From an uncultured Bacteroidota bacterium (GTDB lineage Bacteria; Bacteroidota; Bacteroidia; Flavobacteriales; Flavobacteriaceae): a DNA stretch of 64,000 nucleotides. Made by a program: the position numbers and the translations under genes. Shown piece after piece: positions 7,992-18,713 of this stretch; the first letter of the stretch is position 1; each line of letters opens with the position of its first letter. A model generated the notes under the pieces. It had not been told where the DNA came from. It was given only the letters and a program-made list of their open reading frames with translations, and ran no database searches. Location of the stretch: positions 1 through 64,000 of the forward strand of contig CACIXU010000008.1 of assembly GCA_902590705.1 (NCBI GenBank). Direction: 5' to 3'.

Positions 7992-10900
7992 ATGAAATTA
8001 AATAAGATTTTTACCTTATCGTTTAACCTTATAGTCATAATATTTAACTATGGCTATTCCTACAACTCCTTTGTTAAGGAAAGCCACAATTTGACAATCC
8101 AAAGCGAGAGATATCATGTTATTGTAGCTTCATTTAAGTCAGAGTCTCTGGCGCAAAAAGAATTGGTGAGGTTAAATAATTCGGGTTATGAGCTTGCCAA
8201 AATCTTATACGATGAAAATGGAAAAAACTTTAGAATTTCCATTATGAGTTTTGATAATAGAAGTTCAGCAATAAACTACTCTAAAGAAATTAATCAATCT
8301 GGGTTTAATGATACGTGGATATTTCATAATAGTTTGAATCAATCCTCCCCAAATCCAATAGTAAAAACCGGCGTAACCCCACCTATTAATTTACAATCTA
8401 ATTCCTCTTCAAAAGATATTTTACCTGTTTCTCAGTCACAGTACGAGGGTGACCCTGAGTACCATATTTTAGTTGGATCATTTAATAATGAGAATTATGC
8501 AAATAATTTCAAAGAATCACTCTTAAGCCAAGGGTATTTGAAAGCCAAAGTAATTAAAGAAGGTTCTGAGAAAACCTACAATGTTGTTCTTAATACTTTT
8601 ACATCAAAAGTGGATGCGGATAAATTCATCCAAACACTATCGGATACACCCTATCGAAATGCTACTATTCCAGGATATCCTTCAAAGAAGTTTTCAAAAG
8701 TAATTCCACCAAGACCAATTCCAAATCAATCTATACCCTCCACATTAGAGTCACCATTAAAACCTGTTGCTAAACCATCCAATTTAAAAAAGTTGTCATC
8801 AAAACTTCAGATTAAATCTAATTCCTCTTCAAAAGATATTTTACCTGTTTCTCAGTCACAGTACGAGGGTGACCCTGAGTACCATATTTTAGTTGGATCA
8901 TTTAATAATGAGAATTATGCAAATAATTTCAAAGAATCACTCTTAAGCCAAGGGTATTTGAAAGCCAAAGTAATTAAAGAAGGTTCTGAGAAAACCTACA
9001 ATGTTGTTCTTAATACTTTTACATCAAAAGTGGATGCGGATAAATTCATCCAAACACTATCGGATACACCCTATCGAAATGCTACTATTCCAGGATATCC
9101 TTCAAAGAAGTTTTCAAAAGTAATTCCACTAAGACCGATTCCAAATCGATCTATTTCTGAACAAATTGTTTTACAAGAACCTATAAATCAAAACTCTGTA
9201 AAGCAAAGTGAAGATGAGCAGGCCCAAATAAAAGATCAAATAGAGGAAGGGAAAGTTAATAACGTCGATTCCGAAAAACCTATAACTGAGTCCATAACGG
9301 AACCCCTTATTTTGAATAAACCAGTAAACATCAGTTCAGTAGAACAGAACAAGGAAGAGCAGGCCAATTTAATAGATGAAATTGTGGATGAAAGAGTTAA
9401 TAATTTAACGTTTGAAAAATCTATTATTGAGCCAAAAATGCAAATACCGAGTTTTGATCAAGAGCAAGACAATATTCAATTAGAGGTCAATGATATTCCT
9501 ACGCCACAAAAGAAAAGAAATATTGATAAGAGAAGTGAAAAAAATATTTTTCTGGCTAAAAAAGATTACGATAAATACTCCTATGATAAAGCCCAACAAA
9601 AGTACTTAGAGATTATAAATACAGGAAAGGATTCCAAGGAAGCCTATGAATATTTAGCTAATTCCTATTTCAAAAATAGCCAATATGAAAAAGCCGTCAT
9701 TTGGTATAATAAACTTATTTCAAGATACCCCAAAGAGATTAACGCTGAGATTTACTATCGTGCATCCCTTTGCTTTAAGAGTCAGGGAGCTTACGAAATA
9801 TCAAATACATTACTTGAAAAATACCTTGAAATGAGTAATAATTTAGTTATTAAAGATTATTATGAAAAAAACCCTAATTATCTTGAGACCATTAAATTAG
9901 AAAGTAAAAAATTTGGAATTGAATTAACCCAAATAAGTACTGAAAATTCAGATTTTGGCCCATCTTTTTATGGTGATAACCAACTTATTTATTCTTCAAC
10001 TTTAGATGCTACAGGAAATAGTGATTATGAATGGTCAGGAGAGCCCTTCTTGGACCTTTTTATTGCTGATATTGATTCTTTAGGTAATTTGTCCAATACC
10101 AAAAGATTATCAAATGAGATTAATACAGAATACCATGAATCTTCTGCCTCAGTAACTCGTGATAAAAAGAAAATGTATTTCACTAGAAATAATTTTATCA
10201 ATGGTAAAATTGGAACAGATAAAAACAAGCAAATTAATCTGAAAATTTATACTGCAGAAAGTGATGACGGGGAAAACTGGAGAGGTATAAAGGAATTGCC
10301 TTTTAACGATGATAATTACTCAGTGGCACATCCAACCTTAAGTGTGGATGAAAAGAAACTTTATTTTTCCTCTGATATGCCTGGTACATTTGGTTACTCT
10401 GATATCTGGTATGTAGATATTTTTGAGGATGGGTCATTTGGGCAGCCAATCAATCTCGGACCACAAGTGAATACTGAATTTAGAGAGTCTTTCCCATATA
10501 TTGGTGAAAATAATACTCTGTATTTTTCAAGTGATGGAAGAATTGGGCTAGGGGGTTTTGATATTTATTATACTAGTTTAGATAAGAAAGGGTTTCCTAT
10601 CCGCTCCTCAAATATTGGTGAACCCGTCAACAGTAAATTAGATGACTTTGGATTTATATACAAAGAAAGTAAGGATTTGGGCTACTTTTCGTCAAACAGA
10701 AAGGGAATCTGGGGAAGTAAATCTGATGAGGTTTACAAAGTCACCAGAAAAGGGTGTGATATTAATCTATCAGGTATAATTGTTGATCAGAACACTAAAA
10801 AACCAATACCTAATGCTTATGTAAGGCTTATTAATGAAAATGGTGAAATTATTTCAGATCAATTTGTTGGAGAAGATGCTATTTACCGTTTTGATGAAAA

Positions 10901-11405
10901 TATACAATGTGCCTTAAAGTACACAATTGAGGCTTCAAAAAACCCGGGATATACTCAAACAGTTGCCGAGATTCAATTACCTGATAGCTCAGGCGAAGTA
11001 AAAAAAGACTTAAGTTTAGATTGGTCATCTACTTGTATACCAGATGATTTAGTTTGCTTGCTTGATATTAACCCGATTTTATTTGATCTGGACAAGTACT
11101 ACATTAATCCTAAGGCTGCAAAAGAACTTCGAAAAGTTTATGCTGCAATGATAAGGTACCCAGATTTGGAAATTTTTATTGCATCGCACACAGATTCTCG
11201 TGGATCAAATGATTATAATCAAAAGCTTTCGATTAATAGGGCAACTTCAACCAAAAACTGGTTAGTTAGGAGGGGAATTGCATCTGAGCGACTAACAACC
11301 GACGGATTTGGAGAGTTCGAGTTAGAAAACTATTGTGATGACAATGTAGCCTGCCAAGAGGAAGAACACCAATTAAACAGAAGATCAGTATTTAAAATAA
11401 AATAA
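7992..11405 (+). CDS. OmpA family protein with three SPOR-like domains, TPR, PD40 propeller and CNA-B-like segment
   Basis: Three SPOR-like segments (YHVIVASFKS, YHILVGSFNN twice), TPR-like region, PD40 motifs (LYFSSDMPGTFGYSDIWY), C-terminal OmpA (IASHTDSRGSNDYNQKLSINRATSTKNWL...HQLNRRSVFKIK). Confidence 0.92.
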   Translation: MKLNKIFTLSFNLIVIIFNYGYSYNSFVKESHNLTIQSERYHVIVASFKSESLAQKELVRLNNSGYELAKILYDENGKNFRISIMSFDNRSSAINYSKEINQSGFNDTWIFHNSLNQSSPNPIVKTGVTPPINLQSNSSSKDILPVSQSQYEGDPEYHILVGSFNNENYANNFKESLLSQGYLKAKVIKEGSEKTYNVVLNTFTSKVDADKFIQTLSDTPYRNATIPGYPSKKFSKVIPPRPIPNQSIPSTLESPLKPVAKPSNLKKLSSKLQIKSNSSSKDILPVSQSQYEGDPEYHILVGSFNNENYANNFKESLLSQGYLKAKVIKEGSEKTYNVVLNTFTSKVDADKFIQTLSDTPYRNATIPGYPSKKFSKVIPLRPIPNRSISEQIVLQEPINQNSVKQSEDEQAQIKDQIEEGKVNNVDSEKPITESITEPLILNKPVNISSVEQNKEEQANLIDEIVDERVNNLTFEKSIIEPKMQIPSFDQEQDNIQLEVNDIPTPQKKRNIDKRSEKNIFLAKKDYDKYSYDKAQQKYLEIINTGKDSKEAYEYLANSYFKNSQYEKAVIWYNKLISRYPKEINAEIYYRASLCFKSQGAYEISNTLLEKYLEMSNNLVIKDYYEKNPNYLETIKLESKKFGIELTQISTENSDFGPSFYGDNQLIYSSTLDATGNSDYEWSGEPFLDLFIADIDSLGNLSNTKRLSNEINTEYHESSASVTRDKKKMYFTRNNFINGKIGTDKNKQINLKIYTAESDDGENWRGIKELPFNDDNYSVAHPTLSVDEKKLYFSSDMPGTFGYSDIWYVDIFEDGSFGQPINLGPQVNTEFRESFPYIGENNTLYFSSDGRIGLGGFDIYYTSLDKKGFPIRSSNIGEPVNSKLDDFGFIYKESKDLGYFSSNRKGIWGSKSDEVYKVTRKGCDINLSGIIVDQNTKKPIPNAYVRLINENGEIISDQFVGEDAIYRFDENIQCALKYTIEASKNPGYTQTVAEIQLPDSSGEVKKDLSLDWSSTCIPDDLVCLLDINPILFDLDKYYINPKAAKELRKVYAAMIRYPDLEIFIASHTDSRGSNDYNQKLSINRATSTKNWLVRRGIASERLTTDGFGEFELENYCDDNVACQEEEHQLNRRSVFKIK
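8395..8709 (+). repeat. 315-bp perfect direct repeat, copy 1 (SPOR-like domain)
   Basis: Base-for-base identical to 8815-9129 (offset 420 bp), read from the sequence lines. Confidence 0.97.
8815..9129 (+). repeat. 315-bp perfect direct repeat, copy 2 (SPOR-like domain)
   Basis: Base-for-base identical to 8395-8709. Confidence 0.97.
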
Positions 11406-13989: not shown

Positions 13990-15576
13990 ATGCAATTATT
14001 TTTGACATTTGCGGCCTATACCTTTTTTGTAGCAGTGTATTCTTGGTATAAGCTGAAAAAGGAAAAGTTGACATCAAAAGAAGGTTACTTTCTTGGCGGA
14101 AGGAGCCTTACAGGTATTGTAATTGCTGGTTCGATGCTTCTTACTAATATTTCAACAGAGCATTTGATTGGAATGAATGGTTCGTCTTATAAAAACGGAT
14201 TTATAATAATAGCATGGGAAGTAACCTCTGCTTTAGCGCTAATTCTTACTGCAGTTTATTTTATTCCAAAATACTTGAAAATGGGATTGACAACTATCCC
14301 ACAATTTTTGGAAAATCGATTTGATGGTTTTACACGCTCTCTAGTTGCCTTTTTTCTAATGATTTCATTTGTGGTTACCCTTCTACCAATAGTATTGTAC
14401 ACGGGAGCAATAAATTTGGAAAGTATTTTTAATATATCTGAACTTTTACATTTACCAAAATCCCAGGCTATGAATTATACTATATGGGCCATTGGTTTAA
14501 TAGGCTCTTTATATGCAATTTTTGGGGGATTAAAAGCTGTAGCTGTATCTGATACTCTTAATGGATACGGTCTTTTGATAGGTGGCTTGGCTATTCCTTT
14601 TCTAGCTCTAGTCAATATTGGAGAAGGAAATGCAATTGATGGTTTAAGTAAGGTTTACCAAAATGCTCCAAATAAATTTAATGTTATTGGAGACAAAGAT
14701 TCTGTGATGCCATTTGAAGTCCTATTTACTGGACTTATAATTAATCAAATATATTTTTGGTGTATGAATCAAATGATAATTCAAAGAGCTCTAGGAGCCA
14801 AAAATCTCGAGGAAGCCCAGAAAGGATTGCTTTTTACTGGATTTCTAAAATTATTAGTGCCTTTAATAATTATATTGCCTGGAGTAATTGGATTCTATTA
14901 TTATGGTGATTTTTTCTACGATAATCAAGACATGATATACCCTGAATTGATTAAAAAAGTTCTACCTAATAGCTTCATTGGAATTTTTGCTGCTATTGTA
15001 ATGGGCGCTGTGTTGAGTACTTTTAATAGTGTTCTTAATAGTGCTGCTACCATATTTAGCATAGATATTTTTAAAAGACATATTAATCCTAATATTAATG
15101 ATTCTCATCTGGTAAAAACGGGTAAAATTACATCTGCTTTTTTGGCTATTTTTGCTATTTGCGTTGCACCTATGGTTGGAAATGCCCCAGATGGATTGTA
15201 TCAATTACTTCAACAACTTAATGGGATTTTCTTTATCCCAATTGCTTCAATTATTTTAGCTGGATTTTTCTTGCCTAAAATTTCTGCGTTAGCTGCTAAG
15301 GTTGCTCTTTTAACTGGTTTGGCATTTTACATTACTTGTACCTTTATATTAAATGTTAACCTCCATTTTGTACATGTCTGGGGAATTGAATTTATTTTAA
15401 ATATGGTTGTAATGATTTTGATTTCTTATAATTTTCCTGATGATAAAGAATTTAAAATCAAAGATTTACAAATTGTTGAAATGAATGGTTGGAAGCATAC
15501 TAAGGCCTTTTCATCATTTCTTTTATTCATGACTTTACTTATATATATACTTCTAGGAAACTTTGATAATTATTAA
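13990..15576 (+). CDS. Sodium:solute symporter (SSS/SLC5-like), possible inositol transporter
   Basis: YFLGGRSLTGIVIAGSMLLTNISTEHLIGMNG, multiple TM segments; operon context. Confidence 0.85.
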   Translation: MQLFLTFAAYTFFVAVYSWYKLKKEKLTSKEGYFLGGRSLTGIVIAGSMLLTNISTEHLIGMNGSSYKNGFIIIAWEVTSALALILTAVYFIPKYLKMGLTTIPQFLENRFDGFTRSLVAFFLMISFVVTLLPIVLYTGAINLESIFNISELLHLPKSQAMNYTIWAIGLIGSLYAIFGGLKAVAVSDTLNGYGLLIGGLAIPFLALVNIGEGNAIDGLSKVYQNAPNKFNVIGDKDSVMPFEVLFTGLIINQIYFWCMNQMIIQRALGAKNLEEAQKGLLFTGFLKLLVPLIIILPGVIGFYYYGDFFYDNQDMIYPELIKKVLPNSFIGIFAAIVMGAVLSTFNSVLNSAATIFSIDIFKRHINPNINDSHLVKTGKITSAFLAIFAICVAPMVGNAPDGLYQLLQQLNGIFFIPIASIILAGFFLPKISALAAKVALLTGLAFYITCTFILNVNLHFVHVWGIEFILNMVVMILISYNFPDDKEFKIKDLQIVEMNGWKHTKAFSSFLLFMTLLIYILLGNFDNY

Positions 15577-15756: not shown

Positions 15757-15888
15757 TTAAGAATTGGGATCTTTCTTTTTAACTTTTTTTAAGTAATCAT
15801 CTAGATGGGTTTCCCAGTGCATTCTGTATTCGAAACCAGTTTCAAATTCTTGATTACACTGACTACATTTAATTATTTTCTTACCCAT
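15757..15888 (-). CDS. 43-aa protein with a single classical C2H2 zinc-finger motif
   Basis: Translation MGKKIIKCSQCNQEFETGFEYRMHWETHLDDYLKKVKKKDPNS*. Below the ORF-track length cutoff; fits CX2CX3FX5(hydrophobic)X2HX3H. Confidence 0.65.
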   Translation of the reverse strand: MGKKIIKCSQCNQEFETGFEYRMHWETHLDDYLKKVKKKDPNS

Positions 15889-15965
15889 ATACTATCAAAC
15901 TAATTTAAGAAAATTTGATTAAAAAGTGGGATAATTTTAAATTATTGAAGAATCTAAAAAAGGTT

Positions 15966-16047
15966 AAAAATTTTCAAAAATTTTCAAAAATCGTCAAAAA
16001 ACGTCAAAAAACGTCAAAAAAATTCAAAAATGACCAAAAAAATCACA
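15966..16047. repeat. Eight A-tracts phased at 10 bp (curved-DNA candidate)
   Basis: Consecutive 10-mers each ending AAAAA: ggttaaaaa / ttttcaaaaa x2 / tcgtcaaaaa / acgtcaaaaa x2 / aattcaaaaa / tgaccaaaaa. Confidence 0.9.
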
Positions 16048-16157: not shown

Positions 16158-17867
16158 ATGCAAAATAAAAATAAATTCCTTTTTTCAAGATCATTTAACA
16201 CTATTAAACCAGTCAAACTATATTTAAGTTTTTTAATTTTTCTATTACAGAGCTGTAATCCAGCTAATCCCAAAAACAACTTTTTTGAAGCTGATGTGGT
16301 TGTCTATGGTGGCACTTCTGCTGCTATAATTGCAGCTGTAGAGGTCAGTCAATCTGGGAAATCGGTGATTTTAGTTTCACCTGATCTTCATTTGGGAGGT
16401 CTTACTTCAGGAGGTTTAGGCTGGACAGATACTGGAAAAAAAGAAGCGATTGGAGGTCTTTCGAGGGATTTTTACCATCGGATATGGCAATACTATAATA
16501 ATGATGAAGCATGGAAATGGCAAAAGAGAGAGGATTATGGAGGTAAAGGCCAAGGGACAAAAGCAGTAGACGGCTCTAAAAGAACAATGTGGATATTTGA
16601 ACCCCATGTTGCGGAAATAGTTTTTGAGGATTACATTAAAGAATTCAATATTAAAACCTTTAGAGATGAATGGCTAAATCGCTTATCAGGAATCCAAAAA
16701 GATAATGGTAAAATAGTTTCATTTACTACCCTCTCAGGAAAAGTATTCAAAGGAAAAGTTTTTATTGATGCTACCTATGAAGGAGATCTGATGGCTAGTG
16801 CGGGAGTAAGTTATCACATAGGCCGAGAGAGTACAAAAACCTATGATGAAAAATGGAATGGAGTTCAAACTGGGGTTTTACATCATCAACATTGGTTTTG
16901 GAAAAATATATCTCCTTATAAAATTCCGGGAGACTCTAATAGTGGACTTCTACCCAAAATTTCTCCAGAGCCTCCCGGTGAATATGGATCTGGTGATAAT
17001 AAAATTCAAGCCTATTGTTTTAGACTTTGCATGACAAACAATTATGAAAACAGAAAGCCATTTCCAAAGCCTAAAAATTACGATCCTTCACAATATGAAT
17101 TGTTACTTAGATCATTGCTTACAGGAAGGAAAGATTTTTTCACAAAATTTGATCCAGTTCCTAATTACAAAACCGATACAAATAATCACGGCCCATTCAG
17201 TTCAGACAATATTGGAATGAATTATGATTATCCTGATGCAAATTACAAGAGGCGTAAAGTCATAATTGAAGAGCATAAAAATTATCAGATGGGACTTTTA
17301 TATTTCGTTGCTAATGATCCCAGAGTTCCCTCAGATATTAGGGAGAAACTTTCCAATTGGGGGTTAGCTAAGGACGAATTTACAGACAATGAAAATTGGC
17401 CCCATCAGATTTATGTTCGTGAAGCTCGGAGAATGTTAGGTACTTACATAACTACAGAGCACGATGTGCTTTTAAAAAGAGAAGTTCCAAAACCTATAGG
17501 AATGGGATCTTATGCCATGGATTCTCATAATGTTCAACGTTATATAAATCCAGAGGGATTTGTTCAGAATGAAGGAGATATAGGTGTAAAACCACCAGCT
17601 CCCTATTCAATTTCTTACGGCTCAATTACCCCCAAAAAAAATCAATGTTCAAATTTACTTGTTCCCGTTTGCCTTTCCAGCAGCCACATTGCTTTTGGAT
17701 CAATTAGAATGGAACCGGTGTTTATGATTTTAGGCCAGTCCGCAGCAGTTGCTGCTTGTATTGCAGTAGATAAAAATATTGCTGTTCAAGATTTAGATTA
17801 TAATTATCTAAAAAATTTACTTTTAGATAAGGGTCAGGTTTTAACTCTTAAACATCTGATTAAATAA
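16158..17867 (+). CDS. FAD-dependent oxidoreductase (FAD_oxidored family), probable lipoprotein
   Basis: DVVVYGGTSAAIIAAVEVSQSGKSVILVSPDLHLGGLTSGGLGWTD; lipobox-like LLQSC. Confidence 0.88.
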   Translation: MQNKNKFLFSRSFNTIKPVKLYLSFLIFLLQSCNPANPKNNFFEADVVVYGGTSAAIIAAVEVSQSGKSVILVSPDLHLGGLTSGGLGWTDTGKKEAIGGLSRDFYHRIWQYYNNDEAWKWQKREDYGGKGQGTKAVDGSKRTMWIFEPHVAEIVFEDYIKEFNIKTFRDEWLNRLSGIQKDNGKIVSFTTLSGKVFKGKVFIDATYEGDLMASAGVSYHIGRESTKTYDEKWNGVQTGVLHHQHWFWKNISPYKIPGDSNSGLLPKISPEPPGEYGSGDNKIQAYCFRLCMTNNYENRKPFPKPKNYDPSQYELLLRSLLTGRKDFFTKFDPVPNYKTDTNNHGPFSSDNIGMNYDYPDANYKRRKVIIEEHKNYQMGLLYFVANDPRVPSDIREKLSNWGLAKDEFTDNENWPHQIYVREARRMLGTYITTEHDVLLKREVPKPIGMGSYAMDSHNVQRYINPEGFVQNEGDIGVKPPAPYSISYGSITPKKNQCSNLLVPVCLSSSHIAFGSIRMEPVFMILGQSAAVAACIAVDKNIAVQDLDYNYLKNLLLDKGQVLTLKHLIK

Positions 17868-17936: not shown

Positions 17937-18713
17937 ATGATCAAAGCTTTTTTATTTGACCTAGATGGTGTCTTTTACGTAGATAATCAAATAATTCCTG
18001 GAGTTGATATAACAATTCAGTGGTTAAAACAAAATAAAATTCCTTTCAAGTTTGTCACCAATAATACTACGTTACCTAGAAAGAAATTAGTTGAAAAAAT
18101 GAACAGTATTGGTTTGCTTTTAAAAGAAGATGATTTAATAAGCGCAAACTATGCAGGGACTCTACTTTTAAGTAGGTTAGGCATTAAATCTTGTAAACTT
18201 GTATTAAAAGAGATTGCAAAATTTGATTATCAACATTTTGACACCTCAAACCCTAAACCTGAAGCAATTGTTGTTGGAGATATTGGTCCAAATTGGAACT
18301 ATAATTTGATGAACGATTTGATGAATTTGATTTTAGAGGGAACAAAACTGATTGCATTACATAAGGGGACTTATTTCCAAAGTAAAAAAGGTTTGATAAT
18401 TGACAGTGGGGCTTTTATTGCTGGACTTGAATATTCGACGCAAACAAATGCTATAATTGTTGGTAAGCCTGAAAAAACTTTTTTTGAATTAGCTACTCAG
18501 AATTTTGACTGTAAAGAAGATGAAATTGCTATGGTCGGTGATGATTTGATTAATGATATCCAAGGCGCTCAAAATATGGGGTATACATCTTTTTTGGTTA
18601 AAACTGGTAAATTCAGACCTTCTATATATAGAACTTCTTCTATAAGCCCTGACCATCTTATTAACTCAGTAGCAGAATTACCAAATTACATATCAAGTAA
18701 TAGTTTACTCTAA
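17937..18713 (+). CDS. HAD-IIA family hydrolase
   Basis: FLFDLDGVFYVDNQIIPG, FVTNNTTLPR, VGKPEKTFFELA, MVGDDLINDIQGAQNMGYTSFLVKTGKF. Confidence 0.88.
   Translation: MIKAFLFDLDGVFYVDNQIIPGVDITIQWLKQNKIPFKFVTNNTTLPRKKLVEKMNSIGLLLKEDDLISANYAGTLLLSRLGIKSCKLVLKEIAKFDYQHFDTSNPKPEAIVVGDIGPNWNYNLMNDLMNLILEGTKLIALHKGTYFQSKKGLIIDSGAFIAGLEYSTQTNAIIVGKPEKTFFELATQNFDCKEDEIAMVGDDLINDIQGAQNMGYTSFLVKTGKFRPSIYRTSSISPDHLINSVAELPNYISSNSLL

Follow-up and report, generated by a model that had tools for sequence, protein, structure and literature searches.

A zinc-finger microprotein family shared by a marine Flavobacteriaceae genus and phages

The 64,000-nucleotide stretch of DNA analyzed here, referred to below as the window, comes from an uncultured Flavobacteriaceae bacterium (contig CACIXU010000008.1, positions 1 to 64,000) and carries on its minus strand the gene for a 43-amino-acid protein with a single C2H2 zinc finger (Table 1). 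On comparison with related bacterial and viral sequences, the protein belongs to a real, conserved family of C2H2 microproteins that is shared with phages. The translation of positions 15757-15888 is exactly MGKKIIKCSQCNQEFETGFEYRMHWETHLDDYLKKVKKKDPNS followed by a stop codon, which bears out the proposal of a first-pass annotation that a complete classical C2H2 finger is encoded by this minus-strand open reading frame (ORF); its motif is C8-X2-C11-X3-F15-X5-Y21-X2-H24-X3-H28, that is, C-X2-C-X12-H-X3-H. The same annotation held that such fingers are uncommon in bacteria, in agreement with a published estimate of 0.003% of bacterial genes (PMC3541406). The strict motif occurs once among the ORFs of the window and in none of 100 versions of the 64 kb shuffled with a first-order Markov model.

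Residues 7-28 match Pfam zf-C2H2_4 (E = 5.5e-4) with a score of 20.9 bits against a cut-off of 27 bits, a match that we consider genuine though it is below threshold. The second Pfam C2H2 score of the protein is 15.9 bits (cut-off 25.2 bits), and the gathering cut-offs of PF00096 and PF13894 are not reached. Across the 1.93-Mb genome the sole zf-C2H2 match is the finger gene itself (15.5 bits, cut-off 25.2 bits). Family-wide, 53 of 54 members have weak zf-C2H2_4 matches and the Pfam scores are below threshold in each member examined. A search of NCBIfam with the protein matched nothing.

Conservation and selection

Intact homologs without internal stops were found in 13 of 21 genomes from the Flavobacteriaceae genus to which the source bacterium belongs (67-91% identity, E-values of 1e-18 to 1e-25), with all four Cys/His ligands invariant; the outcome that the first-pass annotation had named as fatal to its claim, a lack of homologs or loss of the Cys and His residues, was therefore not seen. 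The genus genomes without a match include several incomplete assemblies, in which absence is not proof. Selection against amino acid change, for which that annotation had proposed a check, was also evident: the pooled ratio of nonsynonymous to synonymous polymorphism (pN/pS) over the 14 bacterial copies was 0.096, variable columns at codon positions 1, 2, and 3 numbered 12, 5, and 32 of 35, respectively, and no copy contained a stop. Because the ORF is intact in 13 of the 21 genus genomes, without stops and with this codon-position bias, the comparison shows it to be a real gene, translated and under selection. That it might instead be a spurious ORF or a degenerate fragment without function, as its short length and its scores under the Pfam cut-offs could suggest, is scarcely credible: the conservation and codon bias rule this out, with strong purifying selection in 14 genomes, not one stop, invariant metal ligands, and 86 viral homologs.

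Predicted structure and conserved surface

AlphaFold, run with a 54-row alignment, predicted a classical beta-beta-alpha finger: a beta-hairpin followed by an uninterrupted helix over residues 18-39 (EE...EE...HHHH), with a predicted local distance difference test score of about 94 over the finger. The fold matches in the PDB were C2H2 fingers (probability up to 0.96), although, with so short a chain, the E-values were weak (at least 0.7). The model shows the 43-residue protein as one C2H2 finger with a helical C-terminal extension. The lysine-rich tail that had been noted earlier in the window protein is not a family-wide feature, as both the sequence and the length of the tail vary and net charge across the family ranges from -3 to +5, which is not strongly basic.

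Eleven residues are invariant in 72 distinct proteins (C8, S9, C11, F15, G18, Y21, R22, H24, W25, E26, and H28), the ligands and core residues C8, C11, F15, Y21, H24, and H28 among them being invariant in the 14 bacterial and 58 distinct viral proteins. Those unneeded for the fold are R22 (helix position +5), W25 (+8), and E26 (+9), beside S9. At the positions with which a classical finger reads bases, -1 is G, N, S, T, H, or D, +2 is mostly F or Y, +3 is D or E, and +6 is M, L, I, E, K, or Q.

Distribution in bacteria and phages

Profile searches of bacterial genomes at three ranks (151 from the family, 395 from the class, and 396 from the phylum) yielded chance-level matches only. When 84,980 species genomes of bacteria and archaea were scanned with a sequence pattern, 13 loci were recovered, every one in a metagenome-assembled genome of marine Flavobacteriaceae/Bacteroidetes, and the contigs of these loci match genus members that had already been found. 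Among the sampled bacteria, these searches show the finger family in this genus only.

Searches by tblastn identified no relative among the records of 50,697 reference phages and 72,556 plasmids. In successive scans of IMG/VR, relatives were encoded on 5, 71, and finally 104 viral contigs, 86 of which were examined as our viral set, so that the family is present in at least 86 viral contigs. The viral relatives are about 40-70 amino acids long with the core KCSQC-x2-x-F-x2-G-x-[DE]-YR-x-HWE-x1-2-H. The best fold match in a viral library was an unnamed 48-residue viral protein, BFVD A0A516LWY6 (61% identity over 36 columns, template modeling score of 0.72; E = 0.045, owing to its short length), which is probably a public member of the same family. 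No description of the family was found in the libraries and literature searched.

The viral contigs that could be classified are phages related to those of Flavobacterium and Cellulophaga. In 44 of the 86 loci the finger gene lies between genes for GroES and the terminase, in 15 it is beside nrdB/nrdA, in five it is near GroEL or its GroES, and the remaining 22 have other settings. The 44 terminase-type loci belong to podoviruses akin to Flavobacterium phage elemo and to phages of Cellulophaga; their TerL has 47% identity to that of elemo and 77% to that of the unclassified Manatee Spring podovirus. TerL relatives come from Flavobacterium, Cellulophaga, Tenacibaculum, and Maribacter phages, and the GroEL relatives are headed by Flavobacterium phage immuto. 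PHROG matches near the phage finger are TerL, portal, GroES, holin, and endolysin, and in the best-studied 39 loci the gene order is endolysin-holin-x-GroES-finger-93-residue protein-TerL-portal, with the finger gene overlapping the next gene, usually by 35 bases. The slot between GroES and TerL contains no finger in the cultivated elemo phages, the Manatee Spring phage, and ctfjg026. Since the elemo and Manatee Spring phages lack it there, the finger is an accessory phage gene. Its neighbors include the terminase gene in some phages and genes of nucleotide metabolism in others, which speaks against a function confined to a single stage of infection.

Two observations concern other small phage proteins at these loci. 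The 93-residue protein encoded just before TerL in marine elemo-like podoviruses (L108:6104-8523 and relatives) is helical, has no PHROG match, and is a candidate small terminase. At another phage locus (L047:5116-5653), two more small Cys-rich proteins of 62 and 120 residues are encoded downstream of the finger gene, possibly forming with it a cluster of zinc proteins.

In a 72-row tree the family was split (support 98/82) into 33 viral rows on one side and 25 viral rows plus all 14 bacterial rows on the other. As all the bacterial rows are inside one of two viral clades, the bacterial genes lie among phage genes. The simplest reading of this topology is that the finger gene was transferred from phage to host, and the gene probably moves between viruses and hosts.

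Proposed role

Our favored, still tentative, explanation, which we judge to fall a little short of an even chance, is that the protein is a phage-derived accessory protein whose finger is mainly a docking module on a conserved host protein. A Flavobacteriaceae ancestor would have acquired the gene from a phage and then kept it. Zinc would tie the hairpin to the helix to make a small, rigid module, and the host protein would be bound by a face of the helix that does not vary (G18-R22-W25-E26, extending into the hydrophobic L/F29 and L/F/I33); we consider the transcription machinery the most likely candidate for that host protein. Docking would then modulate that host protein during infection and, in the bacterium, would do so from the finger gene's own promoter. 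A docking adaptor is favored over a sequence-specific DNA reader because the invariant exposed residues R22, W25, and E26 are off the base-reading positions and because net charge runs from -3 to +5.

Several points weigh against this explanation. Helix position +3 is nearly always D or E, which is compatible with base contact, and AFV1p06 of the archaeal virus AFV1, a closely analogous single-finger viral protein, binds DNA (PMC3541406). The scan patterns favor CSQC and YR[ML]HWE, and the conservation of both motifs is inflated in loci so found; some loci found by the CSQC pattern alone (within L128-L141) still keep YR-x-HWE, and three with CSKC or CSAC (L061, L097, and L099) were found only through the YR[ML]HWE pattern. 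As to descent, bacterial monophyly was recovered in only 48% of bootstrap trees from about 50 columns, so that there may have been more than one transfer, in either direction.

The strongest competitor, possible but in our judgment unlikely, is a single-finger nucleic-acid-binding regulator like AFV1p06, whose helix would recognize a short motif in DNA (or RNA), with added specificity from the tail or a partner, the phages using it to control transcription and the bacterial copy acting as a local regulator. The classical fold and spacing are what such a regulator would have, and positions +2 (mostly F/Y) and +3 (D/E) are kept; in addition, AFV1p06, a small viral single finger, binds DNA at sub-micromolar concentration (PMC3541406), and the 62-residue zinc protein Com of phage Mu acts on RNA (PMC6483171). 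However, positions -1 and +6 are variable and seldom basic, net charge in the bacterial proteins falls to -3, the most invariant of the exposed residues are off the base-reading face, and one finger could read only about 3 bp. We regard as rather improbable an arms-race gene, that is, a phage counter-defense protein acting on a host defense factor, with the bacterial copy providing superinfection immunity or a decoy. A patchy, accessory distribution would fit this, with the GroES-TerL slot empty in elemo phages and ctfjg026, several unrelated phage neighborhoods, and loss or absence in some genus members, but neither bacterial nor phage members have a PADLOC match (E<=0.1), no defense genes adjoin the finger gene, and the strong, long-term purifying selection resembles that on a housekeeping role rather than on a turnover gene.

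Much more doubtful is a chaperonin or zinc-handling accessory linked to GroEL-GroES. The finger does directly adjoin GroES in most terminase-type loci, with GroEL nearby in a further four, but 22 loci have neither chaperonin nor nrdA/nrdB neighbors and, within the 3-kb bacterial loci that were read, no chaperonin adjoins the finger gene. Moreover, GroES and TerL are already adjacent in finger-less elemo phages, which indicates that the neighborhood predates the finger; this and the 15 loci beside nrdA/nrdB led us to downgrade the chaperonin link.

We think it nearly an even chance that this is an ocean-wide, stand-alone C2H2 microprotein family that Bacteroidota phages pass among unrelated neighborhoods and employ to bind a single conserved host factor, that one marine Flavobacteriaceae genus has domesticated a copy as a core-like gene, and that the family would be the bacterial counterpart of the virus-borne C2H2 proteins of archaea.

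Chromosomal neighborhood

Table 1. Position and basis of the finger gene and associated features in the window.
Feature	Position	Strand	Basis
Single C2H2 zinc-finger microprotein gene, 43 amino acids	15757..15888 (stop codon included)	-	Translation; 13 intact genus orthologs; pN/pS 0.096; AlphaFold finger
C2H2 finger proper, residues 7-28 (C8, C11, H24, H28; core F15, Y21)	15805..15870	-	Pfam zf-C2H2 genome match to exactly these bases; zf-C2H2_4 match to the same residues; Cys/His invariance
Probable promoter element, overlapping TAAATTAG and TTAGTTTG	15896..15907 (-19 to -8 from start codon)	-	Resembles Bacteroidota -7 box

In the window the finger gene is convergent with a sodium/solute symporter-like gene (13990-15576), and on its other flank are a flavin adenine dinucleotide (FAD) oxidoreductase-like gene (16158-17867) and a HAD phosphatase-like gene (17937-18713), all three names being our reading of the sequence. 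In most genus members the finger gene is divergent from the same HAD gene. A prophage remnant at this locus was ruled out, as the flanking genes are metabolic and are kept in relatives.

The consensus of the Bacteroidota -7 box is TAnnTTTG. Nine of 11 stand-alone bacterial copies have TAAATTAG, TAATTTAG, or TAATTTTG (TAAATTAG/TAATTT[AT]G) 17-22 bases upstream of the ATG, an element that we infer to serve as the finger gene's own promoter. It is missing in three genomes. At three finger loci whose neighbors were read (L011, L012, and L013) the element is absent, and the finger gene and the end of a DUF1456 gene overlap; the overlap suggests that finger and DUF1456 genes are co-transcribed as an operon there. 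Two of these loci (L012:1257-1632 and L013:1495-1852) represent a distinct subclade, and the overlapped gene is PF07308 (E = 8e-30). Upstream of the finger gene, window positions 15960-16040 contain a series of repeats resembling TTTTTGA(CG), as read on the minus strand, and a similar run of TTTTTTGACG repeats is present at L003.

In 11 genomes, which is every genome having both, the finger gene is convergent with the gene for an 80-residue Cys/His protein (MDCSSKKNQYYTEEEA...YYLCSECAQFHLTSRG). The window's own clade (G000, G006, and G013) has no such partner, and G014 and G015 have the 80-residue gene and no finger gene. This protein (L154-L166; e.g., L004:1226-1468, plus strand) has a conserved C-x2-C...HLTS and a weak match to PHROG 3424 (E = 2e-4); it has no Pfam match and was not found outside the genus in 120 sampled genomes of the family. 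No phage homolog of it was identified among the viral loci or in a scan of viral contigs, and co-transfer of the two genes from phage as a cassette is therefore not supported.

Elsewhere in the window, ORF 7992-11405 encodes a large secreted-type protein with an OmpA-like C-terminus and a nearly identical internal duplication; its copies (8581-8703 and 9001-9123) are about 420 bp apart, and the out-of-frame ORFs inside them are identical.

Comparison with known systems

With about 45 residues per protein and no member in reference phages, a large phage gene family has escaped annotation, and identifying the partner of the finger would reveal a conserved target in flavobacteria. Phage Mu Com is likewise a tiny phage zinc-finger protein, but its zinc ligands are CCCC and it binds RNA (PMC6483171); as the ligands here are C2H2 and Com lacks that motif, membership was ruled out. 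Bacteria have hardly any C2H2 fingers of the classical eukaryotic type, and their known C2H2 family, Ros/MucR, is built differently, with 9 residues separating the second Cys from the first His in a 58-residue domain (PMC9779718). Ros/MucR membership was ruled out by the 12-residue spacer and by a whole protein of 43 residues (hairpin and one helix), and the ROS_MUCR Pfam model did not match the protein. With classical eukaryotic fingers (PF00096/PF13894) the family shares the C-X2-C-X12-H-X3/4-H pattern, the core F and hydrophobic residue, and the predicted hairpin and helix; unlike them, it has one finger with no tandem array or TGEKP-type linker, an invariant R-x-H-W-E signature, and a long C-terminal helix. 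In this phage family of marine Bacteroidota the classical layout makes up an entire protein, and a copy is retained in a host genus, where selection on it is strong.

A close likeness is to AFV1p06, also a small virus-encoded or virus-linked protein with one classical C2H2 finger. A profile of the finger family had no hit among PDB sequences at E<=0.01, crenarchaeal virus sequences not being compared directly, and the authors of the AFV1p06 study found no bacterial homolog (PMC3541406). In AFV1p06 the finger is extended by a loop, a helix, and a third strand, and the fourth ligand is a Glu, whereas our model has a straight, long helix (18-39) and four Cys/His ligands, and the finger protein may be said to work like AFV1p06 at most by analogy. 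The chromosomal copies of the AFV1p06 family in crenarchaea are of viral origin (PMC3541406), a parallel to the present bacterial copies, and this case offers a concrete way of testing if fingers of this type enter cells via viruses, as has been proposed for archaea.
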